Source of the DNA: Parcubacteria group bacterium | GTDB lineage: Bacteria; Patescibacteriota; Minisyncoccia; Portnoybacterales; UBA2143 | DNA: 41,038 nucleotides | NCBI GenBank assembly: GCA_013203625.1 | Contig: JABMPX010000002.1 | Location: 1-41,038, forward strand | Direction of reading: 5' to 3' | Shown here: positions 10,768-36,354 of the stretch, piece by piece | Numbering within the stretch: the stretch's first letter is position 1 | Layout: each line of letters starts with the position of its first letter | Made by a program: the position numbers and the translations under genes | The notes under the pieces: generated by a model | The model's database searches: none | Told to the model about the DNA's origin: nothing | What the model saw: the letters and a program-made list of their open reading frames with translations, nothing else

Positions 10768-11304
10768 TTATTTTAACAAATAAAACGCCTCTTGTAAAAA
10801 AGATCTTGAATTTAATTTTTCATTTAAAAGCGCTTCAACAAAATCAAGAAAATTCTTTTGTTTGCCATAACCCAAAAATTCTAATAATCTATTCTCAAAA
10901 TCACTGATAATAACTTTGACATCCTGATTTGGCTGATTGAGTTCCTGGAAACTAGATAAAAACATTTGCCAAATATTTTCATCTTTTTCTGGACCAATAA
11001 TTAATTTATCAATCAATTCAGATAGATAATAGGCAGATGATAAAGAAATTAAATTTTGATGAAGAAAAGAAAATTTTTCCATTGTTTCTGCTCCTGTAAC
11101 AATATCAAATCCCCTGGCCGGAGCAATCATTAAATGCGTATATAAAAAAAGCTCGAGATGACCTTTAAGTTTAGCTTGGTTTTTTCTAATTGATTTGCCT
11201 CTAAGCAAGATTTTGCCGAAATCTTTGGTATAAACAGTTAAAAGCCGGTCAAATTCGCCTATATTCGTTCTTTTAATGATAATGCCTTGGGTTTTATAAA
11301 GCAT
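10768..11304 (-). CDS. recO: DNA repair protein RecO
   Basis: MLYKTQGIIIKRTNIGEFDRLLTVYTKDFGKILLRGKSIRKNQAKLKGHLELF; ATG at 11304 preferred over the track start at 11322. Confidence 0.85.
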   Translation of the reverse strand: MLYKTQGIIIKRTNIGEFDRLLTVYTKDFGKILLRGKSIRKNQAKLKGHLELFLYTHLMIAPARGFDIVTGAETMEKFSFLHQNLISLSSAYYLSELIDKLIIGPEKDENIWQMFLSSFQELNQPNQDVKVIISDFENRLLEFLGYGKQKNFLDFVEALLNEKLNSRSFLQEAFYLLK

Positions 11305-11319
11305 ATGAATCAAGTGAAT

Positions 11320-11381
11320 CAAGGACAGTCCTTAAAATGACATCCTTGTGCATAAGGATGTAATTTTAAGGACTGTCCTTG
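11320..11381. repeat. 62-bp palindromic element, copy 1
   Basis: CAAGGACAGTCCTTAAAATGACATCCTT gtgcat AAGGATGTAATTTTAAGGACTGTCCTTG; 28-nt arms with one mismatch; exact reverse complement of copy 2. Confidence 0.97.
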
Positions 11382-11386
11382 CAATA

Positions 11387-13099
11387 TCATCCTATTTCTT
11401 TATTGTAGCATGCTTCGCAATAAATAATCTCTTTTCTGTCTGGGGCGTATGTTGTTTGGAAGGTAGTATTGCATCCTTTGTTCATACATTGCCTTTCCCA
11501 TAGTTTCATTGGATTTCTTTGTTTAATCCGTTCTCTATGTCTGCAATCAGGGCAGAGTCGTGGCAAAGAAAAGTTCATCTTTTTATAGAATTTTAGTTCT
11601 GTTGGAATTAGACGGAATACTCCTGAGCCAGCGCAGTCATCAGAAGAACATTGTATTACTTCTTTTAATATAGAGTTATCTACATCTTTTATGCTGTCTG
11701 GAAGGTTTTTTGCTTTAATTGTTGGTTTATATTCGCTTTTAGGTTTGTCATGCCATGTATATCCTTGGTCTATTGCTTGTTGTTTGGTTAAGGGGAAGTA
11801 TTCATTGGCTATTGTTTCATTGTAGGCAAAAGGACTTAATTCAACAGGGAAGAATTCTCCATACTTGTATACTCTGCCATTTTTATCAACATAGGGCATC
11901 TTGTTCATGTGTTCTTTGATTTTAGGAACTAATTCTTCATATTGTTCTTTTGTGTATTGCTTGTTTAGGATGCAGTATTGCTTGTGACGGAGGCCTACGC
12001 ATGCGAAGAGGTTGGAGGAGGAGTGACAGGAAAGACAGTATTCCATATCTCGACAATTTGGCCAACAGTTAAAACAGAAACTTAATTGATTAAGGCCATT
12101 CCCCAAAAGAACGCCTTCATAGATTAGACTAGCTTTTTCTCCCCAACAATAATAATCGTAGCAATCTTGAGTTATGTCCCATATGAGATGGCAATACCTT
12201 AAATTTTCTCCTTTTTTAACTAAATATGAATCTTTAACATTTTTAGAATTATCAATATACTCACCAAACACGTTAACATTCTTACGGCCATGCATGTATT
12301 TAACCGGGAATTTTAAATGAAGTTGTTTGGTTTTATTGTTCAATTCTTGAATGCTTTTATAGGAACCTGTGTTAAACTCTTCAAGTTTTTTGAAATATTC
12401 TTCTTTAGCATACGACTTGTTAAAAATATGATACTTTTTGTGTCTCAAATTTGCACAGCCAAAACAATTAGAACAATTAATGCAATCTTTACAAAAATAA
12501 ATCTCTTGACAGTCCGTACAATGGGAAGAAAAAAATGTTTTATAGCAATTGTTTAGCATAAATCCCTCATAACAAAGCTCTGATCTCCTAAGGTGATGAT
12601 TATCATAACAATTATTGGAACGATCAATGCCATTACCATAAGCACAGTTCTCGGAATGGCCGGCAAAAAACAAAAGATAGCAGTTTTTTAAAAAGGAGGC
12701 TTGCATAGAATAATCACTATTAACTAATCCACTTGACATACGACTAGCCCAAGGCACCTCTCTGCTCAATTTTTTAATCTGTTTTAGGAACGACTTGTTA
12801 AAATCATAATCATGACCATATTTTAAAGGATCCCATTTATCTGACCACCAAATTTCCTGATCATAGATTTTAATCGGCGCTTCTGGAGAAAAAACAGAAA
12901 AGGTTTTCTTCTTGGAAAAATCGCATTTCCTCTTATACAAATTTGTCTCATTCTGAAAAGCAAACCTCCTCTGCATCCTACAATCTGGACAAAAGGTTGG
13001 TTCTGGCACGTCTATCTTCTTGTAAAATTCAAAGTCCTCCGGTTCTATAGTGAACTTGGCTTTGCAGTTTTGGCATATTTTTGTTTTAGATTGAGTCAT
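11387..13099 (-). CDS. Cys-rich multi-zinc-ribbon-like hypothetical protein
   Basis: Many CxxC pairs (CQNCKAKF, FCPDCRMQRR, CTDCQEIYFCKDCINCSNCFGCANLRHKKYHIFNK, LCPDCRHRER, CEAC); ATG at 13099 preferred (track start at 13111 is TTG). Confidence 0.75.
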   Translation of the reverse strand: MTQSKTKICQNCKAKFTIEPEDFEFYKKIDVPEPTFCPDCRMQRRFAFQNETNLYKRKCDFSKKKTFSVFSPEAPIKIYDQEIWWSDKWDPLKYGHDYDFNKSFLKQIKKLSREVPWASRMSSGLVNSDYSMQASFLKNCYLLFFAGHSENCAYGNGIDRSNNCYDNHHLRRSELCYEGFMLNNCYKTFFSSHCTDCQEIYFCKDCINCSNCFGCANLRHKKYHIFNKSYAKEEYFKKLEEFNTGSYKSIQELNNKTKQLHLKFPVKYMHGRKNVNVFGEYIDNSKNVKDSYLVKKGENLRYCHLIWDITQDCYDYYCWGEKASLIYEGVLLGNGLNQLSFCFNCWPNCRDMEYCLSCHSSSNLFACVGLRHKQYCILNKQYTKEQYEELVPKIKEHMNKMPYVDKNGRVYKYGEFFPVELSPFAYNETIANEYFPLTKQQAIDQGYTWHDKPKSEYKPTIKAKNLPDSIKDVDNSILKEVIQCSSDDCAGSGVFRLIPTELKFYKKMNFSLPRLCPDCRHRERIKQRNPMKLWERQCMNKGCNTTFQTTYAPDRKEIIYCEACYNKEIG

Positions 13100-13108
13100 G
13101 ATTTGAGT

Positions 13109-13170
13109 CAAGGACAGTCCTTAAAATTACATCCTTATGCACAAGGATGTCATTTTAAGGACTGTCCTTG
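13109..13170. repeat. 62-bp palindromic element, copy 2
   Basis: CAAGGACAGTCCTTAAAATTACATCCTT atgcac AAGGATGTCATTTTAAGGACTGTCCTTG; exact reverse complement of copy 1. Confidence 0.97.
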
Positions 13171-13179
13171 TGCATATCC

Positions 13180-13209
13180 AGTATACCTTATAAATCGCTT
13201 TGTTTTCAA
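13180..13209 (-). promoter_or_regulatory. Promoter for the Cys-rich gene
   Basis: Minus strand TTGAAA (13209-13204), 18 nt, TATACT (13185-13180); expected TSS at the outer edge of palindrome copy 2. Confidence 0.6.
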
Positions 13210-13375: not shown

Positions 13376-14518
13376 ATGAAAAGGAAAGAAAAAGAAACAT
13401 TTCTGGAAAGTCGTCCTCAACACGATAACTTTGAATATCTGTTGGCTAACCAGTTTCTCACTGAAGCATCAGATGAAGGGAAAATCAAAAAACTCAAAAA
13501 AGTTTTTGGGTTGGCCGTTGAATATCGCAATGATGAGGCAGCTTTAAAATTATTAACCCTTATAGATAAGGCGATTTACGAAAAGGAGAGAAGAATTGCT
13601 GAAGGACCTGGTGGCGACGGCCATCTTGGTAGAGCGTATGGACGGGCAAAAAGACAGTTGTACGATTACCTGATGGAAATGTATTGGCAATTACCGGACA
13701 TGAAACCCGACCGTCACGATTGTCGTGACATAATGTGTCCGACAATGCTCCAGACAAAATTCTGGATTCTGGAAGAGGTTATTCTCAATTGGCAACCTGA
13801 AGAACAAGGAGCCGTCAGAACATTTCAATTTCTGATTGCTGCTTATGAACCTCTGTCAAAAGACTGGCAAACTCCTGTAGAAAACGCCGAATTCAAAATA
13901 AAATCCAAAGGACGATGGGTTTCTCAGGAGGAAAGAGGTGAAATTTTAAAGCTAATCCGGAGACAGAACACCAGATTCAAATCAGGAGAGATTGAAAAAT
14001 GGATAAAACAACCTTGGATCCCTCATGAATTTGAAAAAATTTTAGCTATTGCCCGAACCCGCAATGGTGGACCAAAATTATGGCAAGATGACATTCGTAA
14101 CGCTGAACTACTTAAATTATTTTCTCCAGACGAACGAACTGAAGCAGCTATTAATCTTTTCCAACGAGAATGCAAAATCATTGCTGAAATTGACCAAAAA
14201 GTCCAGAAGCTTATTAACCAAATGACATCTGAAGATTATTCAGGAAGAGAAGAAATCGGTGGTTCTGAATACGTCCTTGGCAAGAGAGGAATAATCTACA
14301 ATACCATTTTCGAGATTATAATCCATATTAAACTAAGGCCTGATTGTCCAGAAGCTCTGGTTCGTGACAATTTTGGCCGAGCCAAACGACATATTAAAAA
14401 ATGGCTGAAAGAAAATCATTTTCGTAAAGTAACTCTTAACATGCGTATAGAGGGAACAGATTTTAAGTTAAATGGAGAATTTTATGGAGATCATCATCAT
14501 TTAGCTAAAAAAGGTTGA
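13376..14518 (+). CDS. Hypothetical protein (380 aa), orphan
   Basis: Long ORF, ATG with SD GGGAGGTG, own promoter and terminator; no recognisable family. Confidence 0.8.
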   Translation: MKRKEKETFLESRPQHDNFEYLLANQFLTEASDEGKIKKLKKVFGLAVEYRNDEAALKLLTLIDKAIYEKERRIAEGPGGDGHLGRAYGRAKRQLYDYLMEMYWQLPDMKPDRHDCRDIMCPTMLQTKFWILEEVILNWQPEEQGAVRTFQFLIAAYEPLSKDWQTPVENAEFKIKSKGRWVSQEERGEILKLIRRQNTRFKSGEIEKWIKQPWIPHEFEKILAIARTRNGGPKLWQDDIRNAELLKLFSPDERTEAAINLFQRECKIIAEIDQKVQKLINQMTSEDYSGREEIGGSEYVLGKRGIIYNTIFEIIIHIKLRPDCPEALVRDNFGRAKRHIKKWLKENHFRKVTLNMRIEGTDFKLNGEFYGDHHHLAKKG

Positions 14519-29787: not shown

Positions 29788-30432
29788 TTATTTTAAATAG
29801 GTTTTCTCAATCACTTTAATTGAATCTTGTAAAATTAATAGATATTGATGCGTTAAAATGTCTAAAACATTTAAACTGTCTGCTCTGATCGTCTTTGTTT
29901 TAGGAATATTTTTGACTGATTGGCTAATTTTCAAATCTGTTTTAGGCAAAACAATTAAAACGCTTTTATTTAAATTCTTTTTGAGTTTTGTTTTTAAATC
30001 ATTAATTATTTCAACCATTAATTTAGTTTTTCTTTTTGTTAATTCTATATTGTCTAATAAAATTATCTCTTTATCTTTTAATTTAGAAGACAAAGTCATT
30101 AATAAAGCTTTTTGCTTCATTTTTTTATTAATTTTCTTACTAAAATTCCTATCTTTGGTTGGCCCAAAAGTTACTCCGCCGCCCCGCCAAATTGGAGAAC
30201 GAATAGAACCATGTCTTGCTCTGCCAGTTCCTTTTTGCCTCCATGGCTTGCGGCCTCCGCCGCGTTTTTCACTCCTGTCTTTAGTATGGGCTATGACCTT
30301 TCGCGAATTAGCCATCTGAGCAACAACTGCTTGATGGACCAAATCCTGATTCATCTTCACGCCAAAAATTTCAGCCGGCAATTTGGCTTTTCCTGTTTCC
30401 TCGCCTTTTTGATTGTATATCTTAATAAGCAT
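29788..30432 (-). CDS. rplD: Ribosomal protein L4
   Basis: RKVIAHTKDRSEKRGGGRKPWRQKGTGRARHGSIRSPIWRGGGVTFGP. Confidence 0.97.
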   Translation of the reverse strand: MLIKIYNQKGEETGKAKLPAEIFGVKMNQDLVHQAVVAQMANSRKVIAHTKDRSEKRGGGRKPWRQKGTGRARHGSIRSPIWRGGGVTFGPTKDRNFSKKINKKMKQKALLMTLSSKLKDKEIILLDNIELTKRKTKLMVEIINDLKTKLKKNLNKSVLIVLPKTDLKISQSVKNIPKTKTIRADSLNVLDILTHQYLLILQDSIKVIEKTYLK

Positions 30433-30435
30433 AAT

Positions 30436-30454
30436 ATTTTAAGGACTGTCCTTG
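30436..30454. repeat. Half copy of the palindromic element at the 3' end of rplC
   Basis: ATTTTAAGGACTGTCCTTG, identical to the right arm end of the 62-bp element; partner arm absent. Confidence 0.9.
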
Positions 30455-35813: not shown

Positions 35814-35875
35814 AAAGGACAGTCCTTAAAATTACGTCCTTATTCACAAGGACGTCATTTTAAGGACTGTCCTTT
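35814..35875. repeat. 62-bp palindromic element, copy 3, between rpsL and rpsG
   Basis: AAAGGACAGTCCTTAAAATTACGTCCTT attcac AAGGACGTCATTTTAAGGACTGTCCTTT; compensatory differences from copies 1 and 2. Confidence 0.97.
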
Positions 35876-36354
35876 GTTTCAGGACTTGAAGATTCTGATT
35901 CAGTTGTCTCAGCTTTTCCCCCTGCTCCTTCTTTTTTAACTGCTCCTTCTTGTTTTTTAGTTCCATAACGGCTTCTTTTCTGCTTGCGTCCATCTACTCC
36001 TTCTGTATCTAAGACCCCTCTAACTACATGATAGCGCACTCCAGGCAAATCTTTAACACGGCCACCGCGAATTAAAACAACTGAATGCTCTTGCAAGTTA
36101 TGCCCTTCGCCAGGAATATATGCAGTTACTTCCATTCCATTAGTCAATCTGACCCTAGCAACTTTCCGTAAGGCCGAGTTTGGTTTTTTAGGAGTCATTG
36201 TGTGTACTTTTAAGCAAACGCCTCGCTTAAAAGGAGAAGGCGTTCTTTTGGGTCTATTTTTTAATGAATTAAAACTTTTCCAAAGGGCTGGTGCTTTTGG
36301 TTTTTTCTTTGAAATTTTTCTTGGTTTTTTAATTAATTGATGAATAGTCGGCAT
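35860..36354 (-). CDS. rpsL: Ribosomal protein S12 with C-terminal extension ending KDSP
   Basis: [82 protein letters not shown]. Confidence 0.97.

Follow-up and report, generated by a model that had tools for sequence, protein, structure and literature searches.

The stretch of DNA analysed here (the window, 41,038 nt) belongs to a Patescibacteria-type genome of 470 kb in 22 contigs, which is 89% complete (G000). Two 62-nt arms (11320–11381 and 13109–13170), located 1727 nt apart and 100% complementary to each other, enclose a single gene of 1.7 kb (11387–13099, minus strand) that encodes an intact Cys-rich protein of 570 aa (P0001), contains no internal stop and belongs to a multicopy family; the first-pass annotation had described the exact arms and the enclosed gene correctly. 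The first arm (palindrome copy 1, plus strand) lies between the TGA stop of the Cys-rich gene, which is 5 nt away, and recO (10768–11304, minus strand), the ATG start of which, at 11304, was set by comparison with the related genome G001. The second arm (copy 2, minus strand) is the exact inverted copy of the first one and is located 9 nt 5' of the ATG of the Cys-rich gene, in the predicted 5' UTR; the RNA hairpin computed for copy 2 has an energy of −43.4 kcal/mol (z −10.1). Each arm is in itself a near-perfect palindrome (31 + 31 nt, 94%), with the 60-nt core of copy 1 at 11321–11380 and its 13-nt dyads at 11321–11333 and 11368–11380. Chance accounts for neither the complementarity of the arms nor the palindromy of each of them. 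Since each arm is palindromic, the pair is a direct repeat as well, with 93% identity over 67 nt.

A promoter-like match, TTGAAA-18-TATACT (13180–13209, minus strand), is located upstream of the Cys-rich gene and outside the repeats, where a promoter had been proposed earlier; of the 15 such matches found, against 9.2 expected from shuffled sequences, it is one of the best two, with 10 of 12 bases matching, and it can be regarded as a plausible but weak promoter candidate. For an ORF of 380 aa preceding dnaE (13376–14518), neither Pfam nor PHROGs gave a match, and the eight other genomes of the family showed no homologue.

In G001, a Cys-rich gene is also located directly 5' of recO, in the same order and orientation, and has no flanking repeats, which speaks against the cassette or invertible unit suggested previously; 9 nt, TAAtattatactATG, separate the stop of this gene from the recO ATG, and no palindrome is present there. 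The orthology depends on joining two contig ends, which share an overlap of ~90 nt containing one mismatch, the gene being split across both. The genomes G004, G005, G006, G007 and G008 contain a gene of ~950–985 aa upstream of recO instead. The geometry of the window locus, in which the 62-nt arms are exactly inverted and a promoter-like match lies beyond them, would fit an invertible switch, where recombination between the arms turns the gene away from the promoter, but this is highly improbable: the arms, being direct repeats too, would equally permit deletion, no recombinase gene is found among the identified neighbours, and the orientation of the gene relative to recO is the same in G001 and in the window. 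At 62 nt, the arms are short enough for ordinary reads to span them.

A palindrome dispersed through the genome

The palindromic element is composed of a 13-nt end, AAGGACAGTCCTT, a variable spacer of ~34 nt and then AAGGACTGTCCTT, the ends being inverted and the whole forming one long hairpin. In ten 60-nt copies, 27–29 of the 30 pairs are Watson–Crick pairs, and compensatory double changes are observed at several of them, e.g., pair 22–39 is either A-T or G-C, and a GTC/GAC variant is present at C14:16863. A whole-genome search revealed further copies in the contigs C3, C5, C7, C11, C14 (two) and C19, as well as a third full palindrome in the window (35815–35874, minus strand); counted as loci, G000 contains ~11 full elements and ~9 solo or decayed 13-nt ends. 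The 13-nt end AAGGWCNGWCCTT has 30 exact occurrences in the 470 kb of G000, compared with one for the reversed control pattern. Against this background, the exact identity of the window pair barely stands out, since the C11 copy reaches 98% and other well-preserved copies 89–95%.

Among the other members of the taxonomic family, the 13-nt end is frequent in G003, G004 and G007 (30–35 sites, with 35 AAGGWCNGWCCTT sites in G007) and absent in G005, G006 and G008. Exact two-ended elements are rare elsewhere (4 of 286 genomes of the class), and in sister genera the palindrome is absent or has another sequence. An Rfam search gave only sub-threshold matches, chiefly to microRNA hairpins. No constant target-site duplication was legible in the flanks, which are AT-rich, and a constant GTAG or CGTC tag is absent from the aligned copies and their flanks.

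The element is mostly situated at gene ends or shortly past them, and many of its sites adjoin unrelated genes (S12, L3, def, lytR). The palindrome end reads AAG GAC AGT CCT TAA or TGA, i.e., K-D-S-P-stop, on either strand, which offers a mobile repeat a simple route into gene ends with little harm. Four core genes end in KDSP-stop at a full or half copy because the palindrome supplies their last codons and the stop: the S12 gene (35860–36354 in the window), at the third full palindrome; the L3 gene (30439–31143 in the window), at a half palindrome, or solo end (30425–30454, plus strand); and the genes of peptide deformylase (Def; L024 6971–7432) and of a LytR-family protein (L025 6434–7510). 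One copy is located in frame within a WecG/TagA-like glycosyltransferase gene (contig C14 of G000; L024 9747–9806), where it seems to replace the stretch between VVD and LFVALG.

The Cys-rich family and its 5' junctions

Protein P0001 contains Cys pairs close to both ends and shows a weak N-terminal match to a treble clef. Sequence searches against Pfam, NCBIfam, PHROGs and the PDB suggested no function, the matched phrog_15341 being itself of unknown function, and a search of a viral collection yielded one partial match. An AlphaFold2 model built on a four-sequence alignment was set aside (pLDDT 43). The family as a whole is large, has conserved cysteines and an unknown function, and has multiplied repeatedly; its distribution is patchy and sometimes multicopy (10 of 55 genomes, including G000). 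G000 contains no fewer than five long copies, along with several fragments, many of them at contig ends; several of its contigs stop inside copies of the gene, and the arrays are incompletely resolved. The neighbourhoods of the copies include two TraG/TrwB-like ATPase genes, the vicinity of alaS, a secF-like gene and positions 5' of ligA and of recO. Tandem arrays of the gene are found in G037 and G050, with starts devoid of palindromes; contig C21 of G037 (L037, L049, L052, L053) carries a tandem of about four genes, and the starts examined there have no palindrome.

The G000 paralogues are 55–63% identical and do not form one clade in the tree, where one of them pairs with a G005 sequence (support 100/99) and the window copy is not resolved. 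This branching indicates that the paralogues are old and predate the genera, the genes forming an old multicopy family of Patescibacteria.

A palindrome or a solo 15-nt end precedes the ATG by 6–12 nt at five of the six visible Cys-rich starts in G000 (the window copy, two copies on C11 and those on C19 and C5; C17 has none), compared with a chance expectation of ~0.24 such starts, given ~20 loci and ~500 genes (gene number estimated) and with the copies not being independent; the link between the palindrome and the Cys-rich family is not random. One conceivable reason is regulation, with the 13-nt dyad serving as an operator, or the hairpin as an RNA element, selected at the 5' ends of these genes. 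In four paralogues the full or solo element occupies a fixed spot 9 nt before the ATG, the 5' UTR hairpin is highly stable, G004 possesses a different palindrome at the equivalent place, and G048 has one just before the ATG. Such a role is very unlikely to explain the arms, however, as no palindrome precedes the ATG in C17, G001, G003, G023, G050 and G037, and the identical palindrome is found downstream of, and within, unrelated genes.

The flanks of the element are shared too: the window copy, C19 and the two C11 copies have them in common (ACTCAARTYATG), and at the window, C11, C19 and C20 the element has CCTTG-ACTCAARTCATG upstream and GAAATAGGATGA, followed by TRTYA or TATTG, downstream. 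Solo ends occupy exactly the position of the full copy at paralogous junctions. Since the paralogues are old and no sister genus is seen to carry the palindrome at its family members, these common flanks are indicative of 5' conversion or unequal exchange; the link as a whole finds its best explanation in gene conversion or duplication among the paralogues. In columns 1–43 of the codon alignment, the fraction of identical codons is 0.69 within G000, compared with 0.56–0.60 over the remainder of the gene and 0.53 when different genomes are compared. All this provides modest evidence that the 5' ends may have been homogenised by gene conversion or unequal exchange among paralogues. From the exact identity of the arms, the first-pass annotation had suggested recent duplication, gene conversion or co-mobilisation; a spread of the palindrome together with the gene gains some support from the five starts and the four shared flanks.

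The same starts and flanks, the presence of Cys-rich copies at many G000 loci and, on C11 after the TraG2 gene, a short remnant resembling the Cys-rich 3' end and followed by a palindrome, could also be interpreted as traces of a composite mobile cassette, with the palindromes as its ends and the gene between them moving, or being duplicated, as one block, either through a RAYT (Y1 transposase) acting in trans or through homologous recombination between palindromes. This interpretation seems rather unlikely. Full palindromes on both sides are seen at the window copy only, some flanks being hidden by contig ends; in G000 the dispersed palindrome is mostly found beside unrelated genes, and no second family gene was seen between two full copies, let alone the multiple loci of a composite transposon. 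The C17 copy has no palindrome, the 3' ends of the second C11 copy (C11b) and of the C5 copy have none, and in G037 and G050 the family has multiplied without any. Target duplication was not seen in the flanks, and paralogues so divergent and dispersed over the tree are not recent transposed copies.

Relation to REPINs and the putative mover

The plan of the element is the same as that of REPINs, where two ends are inverted (PMC3116915). As in REPIN/REP-RAYT systems, the ends are inverted and conserved, the spacer is variable, a single hairpin with compensatory changes is formed, solo ends occur as decayed copies, and the copies are dispersed, over-represented and located near gene ends. Published REPtrons include RAYTs flanked by TIRs, with overlaps, and cases of loss by deletion (PMC3733652); in the relatives of G000, palindromes are likewise located at the RAYT ends or overlap them. 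The differences include the low copy number (~11 full elements), a 13-nt dyad end, the lack of the GTAG/CGTC tag, the lack of a cognate RAYT in G000, RAYT–palindrome pairs (with related or other palindromes) occurring only in relatives, and the confinement of the element, among the genomes searched, to part of one Patescibacteria family. No paper dealing with REPINs or RAYTs jointly with Patescibacteria was found in the literature searched.

Other known systems show a more partial resemblance. Rickettsia palindromic elements (~150 nt) reside in frame within protein genes (PMC10969869), as do the inserts in the WecG-like gene and in the Cys-rich gene of G001, but the present element is 60 nt long, and most of its copies are at gene ends, where several supply the stop. 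The element is short, non-coding and dispersed and has terminal inverted repeats, like MITEs, but neither a target-site duplication nor, in G000, a parent transposon with matching ends was found. Integron-like attC sites seem unlikely, as the palindromes adjoin single unrelated genes and no array of different cassettes is present.

A Y1 transposase (Y1_Tnp) or RAYT was not found in the 89% complete assembly of G000, and Y1 transposases are present in 32 of the 55 genomes of the search among relatives, commonly with palindromes near their ends. Palindromes with the AGGTCNGACCT core adjoin RAYTs in G003 and G004; the AAGGAC palindrome was sought beside the RAYTs of the G003 contigs C12 and C96 and was not found there. 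The best RAYT match in G007 is flanked by another palindrome, GGGGGCTGCCCCC, despite the 35 AAGGWCNGWCCTT sites of that genome. The RAYT connection is clearest in G001, where GTTAGACCCTTAGGGTCTAAC occurs exactly twice genome-wide, once overlapping the RAYT stop codon and once in frame in the recO-linked Cys-rich gene. A RAYT may be a candidate for moving the AAGGAC element.

With a probability of roughly 0.7, the window arms are two instances of a REPIN-like palindrome dispersed through the genome, and the gene next to them belongs to an expanded family, with a recurrent 5' junction that has been spread among the paralogues. The element would be non-autonomous and moved in trans by a RAYT that has been lost from G000 or is missing from the assembly. 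The Cys-rich gene, to judge from G001, probably adjoined recO before the palindromes arrived; a palindrome would have landed shortly 5' of one family member, recombination between paralogues would have passed this 5' junction to others, and another copy would have come to sit between the Cys-rich gene and recO. The likely effects are local, namely strong hairpin formation, both within the 5' UTR and between the Cys-rich gene and recO, and a substrate for recombination. Several points speak against this REPIN-like reading: no RAYT was found in G000, the best RAYT match of G007 has a different palindrome, a consistent target-site duplication and a GTAG or CGTC tag were not seen, the G001 orthology depends on two contig ends, and the tree leaves the window copy unplaced. 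Moreover, the element is over-represented at the Cys-rich family (five of six starts), more than would be predicted if insertion were simply random.

A closer association is conceivable, in which the Cys-rich family and RAYT-linked palindromes are partners: the palindromes would mark the 5' junctions, and recombination or a RAYT would shuffle and multiply the copies, keeping the ends conserved while the middles diverge. Palindromic inserts are also found inside the Cys-rich gene in G001 and C11, in line with such a partnership, which is nevertheless unlikely; if it did exist, a genome of ~0.5 Mb would possess a cassette-like diversification system for a fast-diverging gene family.

In the linker of the Cys-rich protein near residues 484–489, differing sequences of palindromic or repeat-like character are inserted in frame in G001 (L110, ~9596), in the C11a copy of G000 (L022) and in the Cys-rich gene of G004 (L114), and this linker can be considered a recurrent insertion site. 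The 21-mer GTTAGACCCTTAGGGTCTAAC is present within an ORF in G007 as well, and in G000 it lies in frame, together with a different palindrome, AAGGTCAGACCTT, in one glycosyltransferase-like gene (G000:C19:15217–15387; L138 3218–3388).
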